Assembly (NCBI GenBank): GCA_026419015.1
Contig: JAOAAF010000003.1
Location: forward strand, 1 to 60,043
Reading direction: 5' to 3'
DNA length: 60,043 bases
DNA from: Spirochaetota bacterium
Lineage (GTDB): Bacteria > Spirochaetota > UBA4802 > JAGODF01
Shown: positions 7,728 through 17,714 of the stretch, in pieces
How positions within the stretch are numbered: the first letter of the stretch is position 1
How the letters are laid out: the number at the start of each line of letters is the position of its first letter
Position numbers and translations under genes: made by a program
The notes under the pieces: model-generated
The model's input: the letters and a program-made list of their open reading frames with translations, nothing else
The model's database searches: none
Told to the model about the DNA's origin: nothing

Positions 7728-8090
7728 TTACATTTTTAAAGCTTTTCGCATTTTTTGAGCAAATTCCTGTTCGTTAAGCGGAAATGTAAAATATTCATCT
7801 GCACCGCGTTCGTAGGCATCGATAAACGGAAGTGGGTGTTTTATTACTGAAATTGCAACCACCGGTATTTGTTCCATTCCATGAATTTTTCGTACTTTCT
7901 CAATTACCAGCAAACCATCGAGCGATTCTGAATAAATCACGACAATCACTGCTCGCACATTCCCACCGCCAAGCCGTTGCAAAAATTCCCGCTCGTCTCG
8001 AAAAATCTCACACCGCTCGTTAAAAGAATCCAACGAACGATGCAATGCAACATCATGCTCGCGAACTTCGTTTAGTATTACAAATGCCAT
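7728..8090 (-). CDS. CheY-like pseudo-receiver (degenerate response regulator receiver)
   Basis: Receiver-like beta/alpha pattern ending in IPVVAISVIKHPLPFIDAYERGADEYFTFPLNEQEFAQKMRKAL. Canonical acidic pair, phosphoacceptor Asp and Lys are not present at the expected positions. Confidence 0.6.
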   Translation of the reverse strand: MAFVILNEVREHDVALHRSLDSFNERCEIFRDEREFLQRLGGGNVRAVIVVIYSESLDGLLVIEKVRKIHGMEQIPVVAISVIKHPLPFIDAYERGADEYFTFPLNEQEFAQKMRKALKM

Positions 8091-8093
8091 CTG

Positions 8094-9386
8094 TCAGTTC
8101 TTTTCCATGTACAGTTTTCGAAGCATTGCGTTCATCCTCGGGCTTTCAATAACGCGAACAATCTTTCGAAAGTTGTCCGATCGAAGGTCTATCTGGATGC
8201 GGCTTTTCTTTCTATTAAGCGTTGCATCGTAAAACACTTCCACCCGTGGGGTAAGTGGTCTTCCTCTAAAAATCTCGATGATGCGCGCAAACTCATACGA
8301 AATCGGTGTGCGCTGATCTTTTCCCACAATTCTTCCCCCCGATTCGATCATCACAAAATTTCCTTCTTCCAAAAAATCCCTACCTCTGTTCAACGAAAGG
8401 GAAAGCGCTTTCAAGAAAAGGTGCACATCCGATACCGAAAAATAATAGTTGGAAGTGTTAAGGATGTAACGAAGCGCCGTGCGGGGCTCATTTCCCTGCC
8501 GCCACGGAGTTGTAGTGGTAAGCGCATCGTACATATCGCAAATCCCTAAGATGCGGACTTCTTCAGGAAGTTTGAAATAAAATTCTCTGCTTGCGCCATC
8601 GCGCTCCTTGCGATTTGGATATCCATAGATGACAAATTTCCGATGATGAAAAAGTGCCCCGTATTTAATTAAATCGCTTATCTTTTTTTGTGGGGAATAC
8701 TTTTCAACATCCGCCAAAATTCGATACCCCTCGCGGGTGTGTTCCAACATTATCTTCATTTCTTCTTTGGAAAGCGGGCCAGGTTTGTCGACAATCTCTT
8801 TCGGGATGCGAAGCTTCCCAATATCGTGCAAGTACCCCGCAATTGACATCGTTCGAATGCGGTCAGCATTGTACGAAGTTTTGTACTGGTAAACCATCGC
8901 CAAAAGGCCCACATTCACCGAGTGAACATAGGTATAGTAATCAAAATTGCTAATATCTTTCAAAAGGGAAAGCACTCCTCCATAGCGATCTTCGCTTTTG
9001 AGATTGCTTAAAAGTTCTACCATATCGCGGTGGGTGTTAAGGTATTGTTCGTATGTCATTGTCCCCGTTTGTCGAACATTTGCATATGTTGCCGCAGTAT
9101 TTTCGGCTAAGCTTTTAATTCTATCCTGCGAAAATATTTCATAATCATAATTGCCAACTTTTTCAGATATGCGCGGGATGAAAAACCGAATACCCTGCTT
9201 TGATTTCTCTGCGATTTCTTCTTTGGTGATCGATTTACCAGCGTGAAAAATGATGTTTTCGTTTTGGTCGTAAATATTAAACGTGAGAATTTTCTCCCCG
9301 CTGAGCTTCTCAAAAAATGAATGGGAAATCTCTTCGTAGCGCGAAAGGTCGATTGCAATTTCGTTTTTCCCGGCAAAATCTTCCAT
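8094..9386 (-). CDS. HD-GYP domain protein (HD motif intact)
   Basis: HSVNVGLLAMVYQYKT..SIAGYLHDIGKLRIPKEIVDKPGPLSKEEMKIMLEHTREGYRIL..HHRKFVIYGYPNR..ILGICDMYDALTT. Confidence 0.85.
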   Translation of the reverse strand: MEDFAGKNEIAIDLSRYEEISHSFFEKLSGEKILTFNIYDQNENIIFHAGKSITKEEIAEKSKQGIRFFIPRISEKVGNYDYEIFSQDRIKSLAENTAATYANVRQTGTMTYEQYLNTHRDMVELLSNLKSEDRYGGVLSLLKDISNFDYYTYVHSVNVGLLAMVYQYKTSYNADRIRTMSIAGYLHDIGKLRIPKEIVDKPGPLSKEEMKIMLEHTREGYRILADVEKYSPQKKISDLIKYGALFHHRKFVIYGYPNRKERDGASREFYFKLPEEVRILGICDMYDALTTTTPWRQGNEPRTALRYILNTSNYYFSVSDVHLFLKALSLSLNRGRDFLEEGNFVMIESGGRIVGKDQRTPISYEFARIIEIFRGRPLTPRVEVFYDATLNRKKSRIQIDLRSDNFRKIVRVIESPRMNAMLRKLYMEKN

Positions 9387-9395
9387 AAAAAACCA

Positions 9396-10298
9396 TCATT
9401 CGCCTAAAAATATCTTTTCAAAAAACGATTCCATGCTCTTTACCGATGGATTTTTCACTACTTGTTCCCATATTGAATTCATGGATAATAAAAAGTGATT
9501 CGAATTTTCGGACATCAGCGCCGGAACACCCTCACGCAAACTTTTATGAAAAAGAGTTGGATCGTTATACACAAATCCTGCAAAAAATATTTTCACTCCA
9601 ATTCCAAACTGAGCAAGCGTTTTTTCGAGACTACTAAACGCTTGGTATGCTTCCTGATATCCCGTTGCCATATTTACGCAAATATCAATGGGTCGCCTCT
9701 TGTTTTCCAATGCCATGAATTTTATGACCTTGTAGGCATCCAGCAATGAAGTGGATACCGGATTTATTACGAGCAATGTGTAATCCGAAAACATAATTTG
9801 ACGCATAATTATTTTATTAAGCCCAGCCCCAGTGTCAACCACAATCCATTCGTAATGTTCTTCCAACTTATTGAGTTCGCTTAATATTTTTTCATTCGCC
9901 GTCACTTCGATTTCGTTAATTCGCTTTTCATCGCCCCCAAACGAGATGAGATCGACGCCATACTGCGTATGCACAATATAATGCGGCAACGAAGAAGGAT
10001 CCTCTAAAAAACGATCTAAACATGGCGAAAGCTTCTCTCCCAGCATCAAATGCGCATTGGAAAGATGATAATCAGCATCGAACAAAAGCACCTTATTTGC
10101 GGAAAACGTTGATGCCGAATTCATCCCTATCCGTTTTGCCATCGCTACTGCAAGATTTACAGAAATAAACGTTTTGCCCGTTCCCCCTTTCCCACCGCTA
10201 ACCGTGAGAACTTTTGAACGCTTTCGTCTCCGTGCTGGCATATCGAATTTCCATTTATATAAAATTTTGTACAATTTATCTTTGAACAACGACTGCAT
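9396..10298 (-). CDS. MinD/ParA-type ATPase, FlhG-like
   Basis: Deviant Walker A SGGKGGTGKTFISVNLA, FDADYHLSNAHLMLG, and WIVVDTGAGLN. Possible alternative start at M20 (10241). Confidence 0.85.
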   Translation of the reverse strand: MQSLFKDKLYKILYKWKFDMPARRRKRSKVLTVSGGKGGTGKTFISVNLAVAMAKRIGMNSASTFSANKVLLFDADYHLSNAHLMLGEKLSPCLDRFLEDPSSLPHYIVHTQYGVDLISFGGDEKRINEIEVTANEKILSELNKLEEHYEWIVVDTGAGLNKIIMRQIMFSDYTLLVINPVSTSLLDAYKVIKFMALENKRRPIDICVNMATGYQEAYQAFSSLEKTLAQFGIGVKIFFAGFVYNDPTLFHKSLREGVPALMSENSNHFLLSMNSIWEQVVKNPSVKSMESFFEKIFLGE

Positions 10299-11832
10299 CC
10301 TGGGCAGTTAAACCCGAGAAATGCAAAAGGTTAATAACTTCACAAAAAACTTCAAAAATATCGGGATCAAAAAGATACGATTCCCTTTTTAACACTTCCA
10401 ATGCAACCTCAGGAGTTGCTTGCTCGCGAAACGGCTTGCGAGAAGTCAATGCAGCAAAGCTGTCGCACAATCCAATTATACGCGCATATAACGGAATTGC
10501 CAATCCCGATAGCCGCGCTGGATATCCATTTCCATTATATCGTTCGTGATGAGCGCGAATACCTTCAACAACTGCTGAAGGTAGATTCATTACTTCAGCT
10601 ACTTCTGCCGAATACTGTGGGTGCATAAGAATCTTCGCCATCTCATCTTTTGTAAGCTGCGCCTTTTTATTCAATATGGCATCGGGAATGCGAATAAAAC
10701 CAACGTTTTGCAGAAGCGCCGCCAATTCGAGTTCTTTCATTTGGAATTTCGTCAATCCAAGCCGAAGTCCAATTTCGCGTGCAAGCAACCGTACTTTTCG
10801 AGAATGATCCCACTCGTACTTTGACTGCAACAACAGCAAATATCCCTCAGCATATCTTTCAACCGGTTCCAAAAGGGTGGTGCTTTCTTCGTTTTCATCT
10901 CGCAAAATTTCACCTGGGGATTTCATCATCTCGAGCAACAAGCGCGATTTTTTGCTTATTGTCTCATTTTGATCCAACGCAAGCAAATTGAGCGCCTTCT
11001 TGAGAGACGCTGAAGGATTTTGAGAAATGAGCTTTTTCGCATTCTGGAGTAAAAGAAGTTTTTCATCATCGCTGCGTGAGCCCAATCGCTCTACGACTTT
11101 CTTAGCCACTTCTTCTGCCGCATCTACGTGGACTGGCGGTGGCGGAATTTTTCGCATACGCGAACGGAAAAACAAAAGAATTAATATCAAAACTAAAGAA
11201 ATACCTGCCGCCACCCCAATCAAAACAAACGAGAACGGAGATAAACGAAAGAAACCCTTCAGGCTTCCTTCCGCATTCAAAGCTTTTTGCTGAGATTTGA
11301 GTTCCACATACAATTTTGAAAGTTTTTCATCGATTCTATTCATTTTCTCAGCAAGCACAGCAGTTTTACGCAAATCGGCACGAGCAGTTTTTGTTTCCTG
11401 CACCTCACTCACCTCGCGCTTTGGCATCGCTTTTTCTGCAACAATCTCTTTTTTTGGCTCTCGATTTTCATTCGCGATCGCTTTTTCTGATTTGGAAAGT
11501 TGCGACACGGTCGATTCGCTTTTCGCAGCAAGCGTTTTTTGCTCTCCCTCTTTTGGCGGCTCTATCGCGGTGAGCGGTGATCCCTTATCGGTTAAATTTT
11601 TTAGATCGTGTTCTTTTTTCATTTTCCAAAACCACTTCGACGCTTCGGGATGATTGGGATTCATCTTCATTGCCTGCTTGAATAAATCGTACGCAGTTTT
11701 TAAATTTCCTGAATTGTAATTCGCAACTCCGCGTGCAACTACCTCATCCACCGAATTTGTTTGTGAATATCCTAACGCAACGATAAGCATTACCCACGCA
11801 ATCAAATAAGAAAATCGTTTCATACTCGTCAC
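10276..11832 (-). CDS. Signal peptide/TPR-TM-degenerate HD-GYP protein
   Basis: N-terminal signal sequence, TPR-like GVANYNSGNLKTAYDLFKQAMKMNPNHPEA, central TM FSFVLIGVAAGISLVLILILLFF, then C-terminal HD-GYP fold with LLQNVGFIRIP and HHERYNGNGYPARLSG. Confidence 0.85.
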   Translation of the reverse strand: MTSMKRFSYLIAWVMLIVALGYSQTNSVDEVVARGVANYNSGNLKTAYDLFKQAMKMNPNHPEASKWFWKMKKEHDLKNLTDKGSPLTAIEPPKEGEQKTLAAKSESTVSQLSKSEKAIANENREPKKEIVAEKAMPKREVSEVQETKTARADLRKTAVLAEKMNRIDEKLSKLYVELKSQQKALNAEGSLKGFFRLSPFSFVLIGVAAGISLVLILILLFFRSRMRKIPPPPVHVDAAEEVAKKVVERLGSRSDDEKLLLLQNAKKLISQNPSASLKKALNLLALDQNETISKKSRLLLEMMKSPGEILRDENEESTTLLEPVERYAEGYLLLLQSKYEWDHSRKVRLLAREIGLRLGLTKFQMKELELAALLQNVGFIRIPDAILNKKAQLTKDEMAKILMHPQYSAEVAEVMNLPSAVVEGIRAHHERYNGNGYPARLSGLAIPLYARIIGLCDSFAALTSRKPFREQATPEVALEVLKRESYLFDPDIFEVFCEVINLLHFSGLTAQDAVVVQR

Positions 11833-11844
11833 CCCTTAAAAATA

Positions 11845-13527
11845 TTAATAGGCTTTTACCACCCCGTGGCCAAATCGCGCGACGGGCATTGCAGCAACCG
11901 AACTCCAATTTGAACTAGGAAGCGAAACCAAATCGATTTTATAGCATGCTGCTACCCCACCACTCGAATGCGATGTAGCTCCGCCAAAGACATACAAATA
12001 ATCGCCAGATACAATTGCCGCGGCGAAGCCAATTGACAATGGATATTGATTTGTAAAAGCTGTCCACGCAGCCGGTGCGACGAATGGATACACCAAATAC
12101 CCCGCATAATTCAGAGAGGTGCTTGTTGTTGCACCTTGAAATACGTAATTGCCTGTGGTACCAGTTATTGCTGAAAACCCTCCCACTGTGACCATCATCG
12201 CCGGATATCCCTGCTTTCGAAATAGCGCCACAACCTGTCCGGTGCGATTCGACGGCAGAGCAACTTCCGTAACGCCAGTTGAAAGCTGCGTCAGAGAAAT
12301 AATAAATGCATCAACTACATTGGTAAGCGTTGCTGCAGCTGTTCTGCCACCCATAAAATAGCACGATCCTTCCAGCACAACCCCATATCGCTCAGAGCTG
12401 GCAGGCACTACGGCTGTAGGCGAACTCCAACTGTTGCTTGCAATATCGTATATCTGATTCCCTGCGGATGATGCCCATGCGGCTGTAGCATTCCCCGTTG
12501 TTCCTGCTAAAATGTAAATCTTATTGTTAAATAAAAATTCCCCAACATTTGCCCGTGCTGTAAAACCAGCACTTGACCCAGAAGACCAGCTATTGGTTTG
12601 TACATCATAAATTTGAACCGAATTGCTCACCGTGCCATCAGAGCGAAAACCGCCGATTACGTATATTTTCCCATTCGTTGCAGTAACCGAAGCAAAACTC
12701 ACTGGCACATACGTGCCGCTTGCATCTTTCGCAATGTTTGGATACCATGTATCGGTTACGGGATCGTAAAGATCGATCTGCGAAACTACCGTAGAAATTG
12801 CCGTTCCGCTTAAGCCCCCAAGTAGCCAAAACCCTCTTTGCTTTTGCGATCGCGTTGGAGATGGTTCTGTGATAGTAAATTGCTGTTCGGGTGTTACGGC
12901 GTTTCCAATTTTATCATGGTAATTTCGCACCCGATAGTAATACGTTGTGTTCGACGACAACCCGCTTATTGAAATGCTGTGATTCTGAGTTGGCGTAGTT
13001 GTTGGCACCGTGGCATGAGTGTAATTCCCCGGTGAGGTGCCATATTCGAGCGAATGCGTGGTCGCTACATTGGTCTGCCATGTTATCGTGCCTGAGCTTA
13101 AATCGGCATTGGGAGTAAACGTCAAATTCGAAACCGTAATTGTCAGCGACTCGGCTTGAAAAATACTGAAGGATACCTCCCCGCTTGCTTTGACTTCATT
13201 AGTATTTGGCGATTCGACAAATACCTTTGCATAGTAGGTAACGTTCGGCGTTAAATTGTTCACGGTTATCGTGTGGGTTGTTGCTGGTAGCGGACTTTTA
13301 TCCGTGCGATGTACGTAATTCCCGCTTTCAATTCCATAAACCGCATATGCGACTGTGGGAATATTCGTCGTAAAACGAAGCGTTGCAGAATCCACGCTTG
13401 TTTCCGTGAGCACATCAGAAACGAACAAGTTCTCAAGGTTATCAATAAGAGCCTCTTCAAACATCGCGCTACACGAAATTAATCCAATGGTTAAAAGTAA
13501 CATGGGTATAAAACAAAAAATTCTCAT
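11845..13527 (-). CDS. Lipoprotein with two Fn3-like domains and kelch repeats
   Basis: MRIFCFIPMLLLTIGLISCSA lipobox; two copies of the ..TTHTITVNNLTPNVTYYAKV../..NHSISISGLSSNTTYYYRV.. Fn3 pattern; kelch blades such as GKIYVIGGFRSDGTVSNSVQIYDVQTNSWSSG. Confidence 0.85.
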   Translation of the reverse strand: MRIFCFIPMLLLTIGLISCSAMFEEALIDNLENLFVSDVLTETSVDSATLRFTTNIPTVAYAVYGIESGNYVHRTDKSPLPATTHTITVNNLTPNVTYYAKVFVESPNTNEVKASGEVSFSIFQAESLTITVSNLTFTPNADLSSGTITWQTNVATTHSLEYGTSPGNYTHATVPTTTPTQNHSISISGLSSNTTYYYRVRNYHDKIGNAVTPEQQFTITEPSPTRSQKQRGFWLLGGLSGTAISTVVSQIDLYDPVTDTWYPNIAKDASGTYVPVSFASVTATNGKIYVIGGFRSDGTVSNSVQIYDVQTNSWSSGSSAGFTARANVGEFLFNNKIYILAGTTGNATAAWASSAGNQIYDIASNSWSSPTAVVPASSERYGVVLEGSCYFMGGRTAAATLTNVVDAFIISLTQLSTGVTEVALPSNRTGQVVALFRKQGYPAMMVTVGGFSAITGTTGNYVFQGATTSTSLNYAGYLVYPFVAPAAWTAFTNQYPLSIGFAAAIVSGDYLYVFGGATSHSSGGVAACYKIDLVSLPSSNWSSVAAMPVARFGHGVVKAY

Positions 13528-13542
13528 CGCTTGCCACCTCCT

Positions 13543-14433
13543 TTAAAAACCATAATAAATGCCAAAACCAACTGCCATCGTCTGGAAATGGCGTTTGCGC
13601 TGAAATACAACGCAATAAGTTGGACTAAGGCGAAATGAAATTCCTCGGTACAGATGCACATCAACTCCCGCAGAAGCGCTCATTTCAGTATCGATCCCGC
13701 TTACCCGAGTGCTTTTTACAAAGTTTCGCTCATCGTTAATGTGGATATACGATGGTCCAATTGCCAACTGCACAAAGGGAGTAATCCTTTCAGAAAATGG
13801 AAACAGGTAGTGAAAATCGTGATATGAATACGTGACGGTTGGTTTTAGCGAAATATTCACATAGCGGACATCTTCGCTCGGCACATACCCCATATTGCGA
13901 TAGGAAAAATCTAACCCAAACGAAATGCCGCGTACCAATGGGAAATTTTTTTCTCCGTATGCCGAAAGTGCATACGAAGAATCGAAATCGTTGCGAAATT
14001 CACCAATTACCCGATAGTAGGTAATCATCATTCCAATCTTCGCATCGAATCCATAATATTTTGTCGTGAGCGTTTCATCCGAAATTTTCTCAATCAAATC
14101 AGGTACAATTGTAATGTTTCCAAGTTGTAAATTGAGCAAAATTCCAATTTCCTCATCGTAATCTTCAAACTTTCCCTGCAATACCGTGCCATCACGAAGA
14201 TATACTGAGACAGAAATTTTCTTTAGATCCGCAGCACCCTTTGATGTTTTTAAAATTTCCGATGAAGAATAGATTTTCTCCTTGCCGAACGATTCCACAA
14301 CCACCTTTTCTCGCTCAACGCTTACAATCTTTCCGAGAAGAATTTTCCCATCCAGCAAGGTAAGCGAATCGTACGAATACAATGGCATAGACATAAAAAA
14401 GCATACAATACTACTGACTATTTTCATTTTCAT
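13543..14433 (-). CDS. Outer-membrane beta-barrel protein with small N-terminal beta domain
   Basis: Signal peptide, LLDGKILLGKIVSVEREKVVVESFGKEKI repeats, alternating beta strands, terminal ..MAVGFGIYYGF. SD GTGAGGAG near the start. Confidence 0.7.
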   Translation of the reverse strand: MKMKIVSSIVCFFMSMPLYSYDSLTLLDGKILLGKIVSVEREKVVVESFGKEKIYSSSEILKTSKGAADLKKISVSVYLRDGTVLQGKFEDYDEEIGILLNLQLGNITIVPDLIEKISDETLTTKYYGFDAKIGMMITYYRVIGEFRNDFDSSYALSAYGEKNFPLVRGISFGLDFSYRNMGYVPSEDVRYVNISLKPTVTYSYHDFHYLFPFSERITPFVQLAIGPSYIHINDERNFVKSTRVSGIDTEMSASAGVDVHLYRGISFRLSPTYCVVFQRKRHFQTMAVGFGIYYGF

Positions 14434-14764: not shown

Positions 14765-15838
14765 TTATGGCTCTTCTGTACTGCTTACTAACTTATAAAT
14801 TTCCCAGAGAGAATAAAACAGCGTCAATAGCAAGGGCCCAAGCAATATGCCTGCCAATCCAAATGCTTTGATGCTCCCAATCAGCAGAAAGAAAAAGATT
14901 AGAGGGTGAAAATTGAGCGTTTTCCCAAAAATTGCTGGTTTAAGTATATTTTCTAAAATTAAATACCATGCCATGCTCCATGTTGCAACAAAGGCAGCAC
15001 TCCCATAGCTTCCTTTTATTATGAGAAATACAGTGGCCGGAATCCAAATAAACATCGTCCCTATTACCGGGATAAGTGACATTATTGCGCCAATCGATGC
15101 CCACAAAAGGACTCCTGAGATTTTTACAATAAAAAATCCTATTCCAAGGCAAATTCCTTGAAGTGCCATAATCACAATATTCCCTACCAGTAACACTTTC
15201 ACCACTTCTTTAAGCCGCTTCACTACATCTTTTTCCACATCATCGGGAAATGGAAGGATGCGGTAGAAAGGTTCCTCAAGTTTGTACCCATCCTTAAAAA
15301 GAAAAAAAAGGATAAGAAGCATGAATACAAAATTCATTGCAAAATTAATTGAAAATCCTACCACAAGCGTCACATTCGTAAAAATCGACATCGCTGTCTG
15401 CTCGAGGAATGCCAGCACTTTTGACAAAATTTCTCCTCGATTTACTTGAAACTGTTCGTATAACCAGCCAACCACCGCATTATTGCCAATCCACTCCGCC
15501 AACTTTGCCCGCACAATCTCATCTTGGATGTACTTATAAAATTCAAATGCCTGTTTAGCAATCCCTAAAAGCAACAGCAGCACTGGGAAAAACACCACCG
15601 CGCAAAGTCCCAACAGCATAAGAAAACTTGCCAAAGAGTCGAGCCGCACAGCTTTTTTCAATTTATCGTACCATGTGCGGAGTGCAATATAAATTATAAG
15701 CGCAAACAAAAATGGCCAGAAATAGTAACGGAATATAAATAAAAGACCAGCAATGACCGTTCCCAGCAATAAATAAAAAAGGCGCAACAATGTGCGGTTT
15801 TCTCTGATCGCTGCGTACGATTTTTTGCTTTCAACCAT
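14765..15838 (-). CDS. AI-2E family (PerM/TqsA-like) transporter
   Basis: N-terminal paired TM segments and characteristic C-terminal IGSIKAFGLAGILLGPLLLTLFYSLWEIY. Confidence 0.85.
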   Translation of the reverse strand: MVESKKSYAAIRENRTLLRLFYLLLGTVIAGLLFIFRYYFWPFLFALIIYIALRTWYDKLKKAVRLDSLASFLMLLGLCAVVFFPVLLLLLGIAKQAFEFYKYIQDEIVRAKLAEWIGNNAVVGWLYEQFQVNRGEILSKVLAFLEQTAMSIFTNVTLVVGFSINFAMNFVFMLLILFFLFKDGYKLEEPFYRILPFPDDVEKDVVKRLKEVVKVLLVGNIVIMALQGICLGIGFFIVKISGVLLWASIGAIMSLIPVIGTMFIWIPATVFLIIKGSYGSAAFVATWSMAWYLILENILKPAIFGKTLNFHPLIFFFLLIGSIKAFGLAGILLGPLLLTLFYSLWEIYKLVSSTEEP

Positions 15839-16529: not shown

Positions 16530-17714
16530 TCAAAGTACATCGAGAAAACTAATTCCAGCTTCCTCCTCATCGAGAGCTTTTACAATATACAACGAAATTT
16601 CTTCTAAAAGATTTATGATTTTTGTCTCCCGAATTCGAGTACCCTTCGCGTCAAACACCAATTTAACAATTGGCCGAAGCGGTTTTTGCGGAATCGAGCC
16701 AATGACAATCCCAACGCTTTGATCGTTAAGGCGCACCATTGATCCGATGGGATACACTGACATGCGCGAAAGAAAAACCTTTAGGATCACTGGATCGAAG
16801 CGGTTCACCCCACTTGAGAGCAAATTCTTCATCGCATGATAAAAATACTGCCGTTTCCGATATGCCCTATTCGTAATTTGGGCTTCGTAGCTATCTGCAA
16901 TTGCCGCAATCTTTGCGGCTTCATCAATCTGATGGCCCTTTAACCCGCGAGGATACCCCCGCCCGTCATACGATTCGTGATGCTGGAGCGAAACAATCGC
17001 AACGCGTTCGCTCACACTCCCAAGCTGTTTGATCACGCGATATCCATGCAACGGATGCGTTTTGATGAGATTAAACTCCTGTTCGGTTAAATTCGACTGT
17101 TTGTGAATAATGTAAGGAGGGATTTTTAACATCCCCGCGTCGATGAGCAATGTCCCCAATCCGAGATCTCGAAGCTTTTCAGGAGAGTACTTAAGCGAAA
17201 TTCCAATAATGAGTGCATAATATGTCACATTCACCGAATGAACCACCAAATAGTTTTTCCCTTCATCGAGCCCAAACAAAAAGATAAACGAGTTAGGACT
17301 TTCGCCAAGAATTTTTATAATATCGTTGAGTACCGCAGAAAGGCCATCGATGGAAAATTTTTCATTTGCTTTAATCGCATTGTGCACGCGTTCCACTTCA
17401 AGGCATGCCCGCCGATGAATTTCGATAAACTCCTTCCGCTTTTTTAAAAGCGTTTCGTAATCGCGCATGATGGTGCGAACATCCATCCCACCAGTGGAGA
17501 CTCTCTGTTCGAGCTTAAGGTCAGCTTCGGTAGCAATCATGTCCCCTGCAGTTTCCACATATCGCACGCCCAAACTCTGCAACTTTCGGATATCGCTTTC
17601 TTTAATGGTAATATTCGAATCCACGAGTATATTATTGCTATCGATGTAAACCGGTCGGTTAAACCGCATGCCCGGCTTTAACTCATCTACGCTTAATTTT
17701 CTCATTTGTGCCAT
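16530..17714 (-). CDS. HD-GYP domain protein with altered HD motif
   Basis: VHSVNVTYYALIIG..TLLIDAGMLKIPPYIIHKQSNLTEQEF..HPLHGYRVI..QHHESYDGRGYPRGLKG; HD reads ID. Confidence 0.85.
   Translation of the reverse strand: MAQMRKLSVDELKPGMRFNRPVYIDSNNILVDSNITIKESDIRKLQSLGVRYVETAGDMIATEADLKLEQRVSTGGMDVRTIMRDYETLLKKRKEFIEIHRRACLEVERVHNAIKANEKFSIDGLSAVLNDIIKILGESPNSFIFLFGLDEGKNYLVVHSVNVTYYALIIGISLKYSPEKLRDLGLGTLLIDAGMLKIPPYIIHKQSNLTEQEFNLIKTHPLHGYRVIKQLGSVSERVAIVSLQHHESYDGRGYPRGLKGHQIDEAAKIAAIADSYEAQITNRAYRKRQYFYHAMKNLLSSGVNRFDPVILKVFLSRMSVYPIGSMVRLNDQSVGIVIGSIPQKPLRPIVKLVFDAKGTRIRETKIINLLEEISLYIVKALDEEEAGISFLDVL

Follow-up and report, generated by a model that had tools for sequence, protein, structure and literature searches.

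A four-gene cassette of Spirochaetota encoding an outer-membrane barrel, kelch lipoproteins, a degenerate transmembrane HD-GYP protein and a MinD-like partner

Results

Four adjacent genes with a conserved order

A 60,043-nucleotide stretch of a Spirochaetota bacterium (contig JAOAAF010000003.1, assembly GCA_026419015.1; hereafter the window, which is contig C147 of genome G000, 2.98 Mb in 217 contigs) carries four adjacent minus-strand genes that very probably form one functional unit. In transcription order these encode an outer-membrane protein (OMP; gene 1, 13543..14433, 296 aa), a kelch beta-propeller lipoprotein (gene 2, 11845..13527, 560 aa), a protein with a signal peptide, tetratricopeptide repeats (TPR), a coiled coil, a transmembrane (TM) helix and a predicted cytoplasmic HD-GYP domain (gene 3, 10276..11832, 518 aa) and a MinD/FlhG-like ATPase (gene 4, 9396..10298, 300 aa). 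An earlier note on this DNA had described a six-gene system that also took in the next two genes, a second HD-GYP protein (8094..9386) and a stand-alone receiver (7728..8090). All six minus-strand open reading frames are present where that note had placed them, and Pfam agrees with the domains claimed for each, with two matches (OMP_b-brl and Response_reg) below cut-off; the order is conserved in relatives for genes 1–4 but not for the last two. Intergenic distances in transcription order are 15, 12, −23, 9 and 3 nt. The 23-nt overlap of genes 3 and 4 holds for a gene 4 start at 10298, but becomes a 34-nt gap with the internal ATG at 10241, a possible start because the MinD-like proteins of relatives align from about residue 20. 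A scan of the locus for sigma-70-type promoters and terminators gave sites no commoner than in shuffled sequence.

Among near relatives, full-length homologues of gene 3 were found in three of 59 genomes, the window's own included, and in the other two (G003 and G022) the OMP, kelch and MinD genes surround gene 3 in the order seen in the window. The best-matching cassettes were those of ‘Spirochaetes bacterium RBG_16_49_21’ (the contig also found in G022) and of a Turneriella parva metagenome-assembled genome (the contig also found in G061). A kelch search across 393 Spirochaetota genomes was positive in 24, and many of these loci showed the same order, with a TPR/TM/HD-GYP gene next and then a gene of about 250 codons. 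When the same 393 genomes were searched with a profile of gene 3 that covered its TPR–TM part but left out the HD-GYP domain (alignment A5), 17 carried the gene at E ≤ 7e-63, the next-best match being 2e-13. A MinD-like gene follows gene 3 directly in all 17, one to three kelch copies precede it in the same order in 14, and the OMP, detected with a family profile, lies upstream of kelch in 13. One contig (G128) begins within the kelch gene and another (G071) within gene 3, so the OMP and kelch genes of G071 cannot be judged. The order OMP–kelch(1–3)–TPR/TM/HD-GYP–MinD spans nine family-level groups, with gaps mostly below 40 nt, and the genes flanking the cassette vary by lineage.

Kelch (24 genomes) and gene 3 (17 genomes) occur together in 14 of the 393, where about one would be expected (hypergeometric p 6.5e-17, uncorrected for relatedness). 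Furthermore, the trees of genes 3 and 4 have 11 of 14 splits in common, and hence these two genes evolved together. A set of 49 genomes, drawn mainly from beyond Spirochaetota and covering a minority of the other phyla, gave just weak matches to the TPR region (best 1e-9), and a plasmid collection searched with the kelch query returned distant kelch proteins only, mostly from Leptospira replicons.

Extrachromosomal replicons of Leptospira (NZ_CP136245.1, NZ_CP092210.1 and others) encode distant kelch proteins related to gene 2. At L180 (7432–10302), L176 (8331–11378), L175 (8242–10888) and L179 (8410–11086) an OMP–kelch pair precedes a gene for a short protein that is neither HD-GYP nor MinD and is TPR-like at L180 and L176; here the envelope module seems to have a different inner partner. 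In the clade of G071, G075 and G081, genes 3 and 4 are followed by a protein of 375–394 aa (L130 6595–7722, L131 2285–3469, L132 9761–10930), which contains TPR in two of the three.

Gene 3 has lost a catalytic lysine and kept nearly all ligand-recognition residues

Gene 3 matches Pfam HD_5 at 5.5e-34, with weak TPR matches; the TPR region lies behind the signal peptide and precedes the TM helix. A strongly basic stretch directly after this helix suggests an N-out/C-in topology under the positive-inside rule. The earlier note had called the HD-GYP domain degenerate, and Gln-Asn indeed replaces the HD pair (LLQNVGF). The phosphodiesterase PmGH, matched by the family profile at E 1e-41, served as the reference for mapping catalytic residues. 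The window protein has Q375-N376 in place of HD and F379 at the position of K225, and keeps HH..GYP; HDxGK is retained in eight further HD-GYP proteins encoded by this genome. The K225 equivalent is Phe or Tyr in all 17 gene 3 proteins, and the HD or first His is lost in many of them. In PmGH itself, K225A abolishes activity (PMC4159591).

H250, H276, the GYP motif and I294 are conserved in all 17, H277 is replaced (by Gln) in G003 only, and Arg or Lys occupies position 314 in 16 and position 317 in all 17 (R314 and K317 in PmGH). Since the catalytic Lys is lost throughout and the residues that recognise cyclic di-GMP (c-di-GMP) are nearly all kept, gene 3 looks more like a receptor than like an enzyme; the pattern suggests lost hydrolysis with a retained ligand pocket, in line with the earlier proposal of a binding rather than catalytic domain. 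We consider it on balance probable that gene 3 is a non-hydrolysing c-di-GMP receptor. A catalytically dead transmembrane HD-GYP protein of this kind, DvhD, acts as a c-di-GMP receptor (PMC13090378).

In the window's clade, whose MinD is intact, none of the five members has the HD His; members with a decayed MinD mostly retain it. Given few independent events, this pattern may be due to chance.

Gene 4 ranges from an intact MinD-type ATPase to Walker A-less forms

Gene 4 falls into Pfam AAA_31/CbiA/ParA, and its nearest solved structures are FleN/FlhG (E 3e-42). It has an intact deviant Walker A motif (SGGKGGTGKT) and a C-terminal amphipathic tail, MESFFEKIFLGE. In MinD, such a tail serves as the membrane anchor, and the tail of gene 4 is a putative membrane-targeting amphipathic helix. 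The protein is 56% and 54% identical to its cassette homologues and 24% identical to the genome's own FlhG, which is encoded in the flagellar operon (G000:C131); gene 4 as the flagellar-operon FlhG was rejected, the genome holding another FlhG in that operon. Likewise, all 17 cassette genomes carry a separate canonical FlhG with at least 49% identity to that of the window genome. The FlhG frame of G054 (L233, G054:C25:15086-15895) is interrupted by a single TAA, which may be a sequencing error or mark a gene in decay.

The deviant Walker A (KGGxGKT) and the Walker A' Asp are intact in the window and seven others, and lost in nine of the 17. In two clades the MinD partner has decayed to Walker A-less proteins that retain their position next to gene 3. 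The fully Walker A-less proteins were unrecognised by Pfam, and profile–profile comparison linked them to the intact forms stepwise via intermediates (E 1.4e-19 and 2.3e-10) and directly (8e-6). The tails differ too, with SFFE[KR][IL][FL] in the window's clade, a hydrophobic tail in G071, G075 and G081 and altered tails in the Walker A-less set.

The OMP and the kelch lipoprotein

Gene 1 has a signal peptide and a weak Pfam match to OMP_b-brl (2e-4, below cut-off). Its AlphaFold2 model, built on a three-sequence alignment (mean pLDDT, the model's confidence score, 70.2), shows two N-terminal beta domains (residues ~22–65 and ~74–118) and eight long barrel strands. Foldseek placed the barrel closest to OmpA (E 6e-7), with NspA, Ail and OmpX also matched. 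The strand pattern and weak matches to LSM and Hfq hint that the N-terminal domains may be SH3/Sm-like. Gene 1 and its N-terminal domain weakly resemble the leptospiral LA_3334- and LA_0442-type outer-membrane families of NCBIfam (E 1.6e-8 and 1e-6, below the curated cut-offs); these are single leptospiral families, whereas gene 1 is bound to the cassette.

Gene 2 matches Kelch_1 (6e-23) as well as Pur_ac_phosph_N/fn3, and carries the lipobox LISC with Cys19; most cassette kelch copies have a lipobox. Signal peptides and lipoboxes route proteins of these families to the envelope. The Fn3-like domains sit between the lipid anchor and the propeller, and gene 2 is 56% and 42% identical to relatives that lack them. 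The kelch proteins of the window, Turneriella, G379 and G332 have them, and those of G003 and G022 do not. Ig-like (ASH/HYDIN) or Fn3 regions occur in the copies of G059 and G066, which reach 1090–1234 aa. One cassette kelch lipoprotein of 1090 aa (L174 10198–13470) holds several Ig-like domains of the ASH/HYDIN type, which elsewhere characterise proteins of cilia and centrosomes.

The cassette site and the neighbouring HD-GYP/receiver pair

An AI-2E family transporter gene (14765..15838, minus strand) precedes the cassette in both G000 and G003 and marks the site. G001 and G002 belong to the window's family, G001 to the same genus group as G003, and both have an empty site in which the stretch HD-GYP3–UPF0102–AI-2E is kept and genes 1–4 are absent. 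These two loci gave no match to the OMP, kelch or MinD profiles, and their sole HD-GYP match was HD-GYP3. Downstream at the empty site lies a nitronate-monooxygenase-like gene (MKTRITELLKIKYP...), named by sequence rather than by family search; this gene type also flanks the other side of the G003 cassette. HD-GYP3 itself (window 16530–17714, minus strand) has a degenerate HD (LLIDAGMLKIP), is about 82% identical in G001, where it also adjoins the UPF0102 and AI-2E genes, and is unusually conserved for an apparently dead enzyme. In G003, a REC-GGDEF gene (L034 10818–11852, plus strand), diguanylate cyclase-like by sequence, separates the cassette from the AI-2E gene; it is oriented divergently and is a possible source of c-di-GMP.

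The two genes that follow gene 4 in the window are outside the cassette. The second HD-GYP protein (HD-GYP2, 8094..9386, minus strand, 430 aa; HD_5 4.5e-16) has an intact HD (LHDIGK), and the receiver (7728..8090, minus strand, 120 aa; Response_reg 1.7e-4, below cut-off) is missing its phospho-Asp (AVIVVIY; LIIMDVF in relatives), both as the earlier note had read them. Orthologues of HD-GYP2, with 43–51% identity, lie away from any cassette in G003, G004, G008, G013, G018, G021 and G025. In the cassette-free G004 (L248) and G025 (L249) the next gene after HD-GYP2 encodes a receiver whose phospho-Asp is intact, and in G003 the pair, again with an intact Asp, is on a contig other than that of the cassette (L253). 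The phospho-Asp has been lost in the window copy, the orthologues in G003, G004 and G025 retaining it. A six-gene unit was therefore rejected, as HD-GYP2 and the receiver form an independent pair that occupies an unrelated place in G003 and is found without a cassette in G025 and G004.

Discussion

Gene content, order, co-inheritance and the losses and retentions of residues are established, and a conserved gene set spanning the envelope, as the earlier note proposed, is supported for genes 1–4. From these we infer a complex, with its topology, ligand, localisation, signalling direction, docking of gene 4 and output. The most likely reading, to which we give about an even chance, is a c-di-GMP-responsive trans-envelope scaffold in which a non-hydrolysing HD-GYP end is coupled to a MinD-type partner. 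The products of genes 1–4 would form one complex across the envelope, with the OmpA-like barrel and the kelch lipoprotein(s) as its outer-membrane/periplasmic module and the periplasmic TPR and coiled coil of gene 3 reaching that module from the inner membrane. The cytoplasmic HD-GYP domain would bind c-di-GMP (or a relative) without hydrolysis, transmit the ligand state through the single TM helix and dock the MinD-type protein. In the window's clade gene 4 would still be an ATPase with a membrane-binding tail, whose ATP-dependent membrane binding might place or switch the complex; we put forward such ATP-dependent placement in the MinD-intact clade as a possibility falling somewhat short of even. 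In other clades gene 4 would persist as a docking subunit only. Inside-out signalling is preferred, and the output would be a kelch complex assembled or placed at the surface.

Four observations weigh against this picture. G075 and G081 have genes 3 and 4 without OMP and kelch, and hence the OMP/kelch and gene 3–4 modules can separate. Agreement is lower between the trees of OMP and gene 3 (three of 10 splits), although the OMP tree is poorly resolved. The metal ligands of active phosphodiesterases (H189, H221, D222, H250, H276, H277) are all six kept only in G039, G054, G071, G075 and G081, in which weak or altered activity may be possible. Finally, the AlphaFold2 model of gene 3 has a mean pLDDT of 55.6 and its HD-GYP part was not reliably modelled; the model was used for the TPR part, the sole confident region.

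A different flow of information, outside-in, would have the kelch/OMP part bind an external or envelope ligand and control the MinD-like ATPase via TPR and TM, the HD-GYP domain being a protein-docking remnant without nucleotide binding. The loss of the HD and first-His ligands in the window's clade fits this sensor, as does the variation in kelch copy number, attached domains (Fn3, Ig-like ASH/HYDIN) and length (370–1234 aa), expected of a surface-facing part, and the binding of ligands or proteins is a common role of kelch propellers. However, near-invariant c-di-GMP contact residues and GYP loop in the 17 proteins are hard to explain without selection for a ligand, and we regard the sensor as unlikely, with perhaps one chance in four. 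Less probable still is a polar landmark, in which the complex would mark a pole and gene 4 would place flagella, division or chromosome machinery, in the manner of HubP/FimV with MinD-family ATPases. The nearness of gene 4 to FleN/FlhG among solved structures and its MinD-like amphipathic tail speak for it; yet every cassette genome has its separate canonical FlhG, most relatives lack the cassette, Walker A is lost in nine of 17, and neither LysM nor a cytoplasmic TPR was seen.

Even less probable is an apparatus that exports or assembles polysaccharide or lipoprotein at the cell surface, in which the MinD-like ATPase would play the part of BcsQ or a BY-kinase. BcsQ and Wzc/Etk are among the weaker matches of gene 4, but no glycosyltransferase, exporter, polymerase or pilus gene lies within the conserved order of the fetched cassettes, and an eight-strand OmpA-type barrel is too narrow for export. 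Chance juxtaposition of functionally unrelated genes holds true for the window's HD-GYP2/receiver pair; for genes 1–4 it is contradicted by an order kept across nine family-level groups with differing flanks, and we consider it very improbable indeed.

The closest mechanistic parallels to the scaffold are LapD and DvhD of the Dvh system of Desulfovibrio (PMC13090378), which, like gene 3 as predicted, are inner-membrane proteins that combine a periplasmic domain with a cytoplasmic c-di-GMP domain that does not hydrolyse its ligand; in DvhD the latter is an HD-GYP domain that has lost HD and HH (PMC13090378). The cassette's architecture and residue losses appear compatible with a receptor of this type. 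DvhD has dCache and PAS domains and works with a periplasmic protease and adhesins (PMC13090378), whereas the cassette encodes TPR together with an OMP, a MinD-like partner and kelch lipoproteins, and no protease. No protease gene was found inside any cassette, unlike LapD/DvhD operons, and for the large kelch lipoproteins Pfam reported kelch, Fn3 and Ig-like domains, and no adhesin of the protease-cleaved type. Most likely, the cassette works like the LapD/DvhD receptors by analogy and is not a member of that group.

Other known systems match in part. Gene 4 shares the deviant Walker A and C-terminal amphipathic tail of FlhG/FleN, but lies outside a flagellar operon, has a transmembrane HD-GYP partner and has lost Walker A in nine of 17 cases. 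HubP/FimV resembles the proposed role of gene 3 as a single-pass inner-membrane protein working with MinD-family ATPases; gene 3 differs in having no LysM match, a periplasmic TPR, an HD-GYP cytoplasmic part and co-encoded outer-membrane partners. PmGH-type phosphodiesterases have the same domain, with GYP loop and recognition residues kept in gene 3, but the K225 equivalent is replaced in every gene 3 protein and HD or the first His is often lost. The Tad pilus CpaE/TadZ, a fusion of a pseudo-receiver with a MinD-like ATPase encoded alongside pilus genes, was rejected: here the receiver is a separate gene of another pair and the conserved order is without a pilus gene. A known anti-phage defence system was likewise rejected, with no PADLOC match for genes 1–4.

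In the literature searched, mostly open papers, we found no earlier description of the cassette and no paper joining kelch, HD-GYP and spirochaetes. Nothing relevant was found there for a kelch lipoprotein with MinD or with c-di-GMP, for HD-GYP with a MinD-like ATPase, for HD-GYP with tetratricopeptide repeats in spirochaetes or for HD-GYP with FlhG neighbourhoods. Each part belongs to a known superfamily, and the assembly matches no system found. A bolder proposal, which we advance as doubtful, is that the cassette represents a class of envelope-spanning machine not recognised before, a pairing of pseudo-enzymes in which a dead HD-GYP second-messenger receptor and a MinD protein evolving from an ATPase into an ATP-independent docking subunit would jointly control an outer-membrane kelch/OmpA-like complex.

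To our knowledge, reception by a dead HD-GYP domain, a MinD partner and an outer-membrane propeller–lipoprotein complex have not been linked before, and few trans-envelope systems are defined in spirochaete envelope biology. The cassette is small enough for deletion testing. If the scaffold is real, it would join non-catalytic HD-GYP c-di-GMP reception, a MinD-family partner and an outer-membrane propeller–lipoprotein complex in one portable cassette, and the natural series of intact, half-decayed and Walker A-less MinD proteins would offer a way to ask what MinD does after losing ATP binding.

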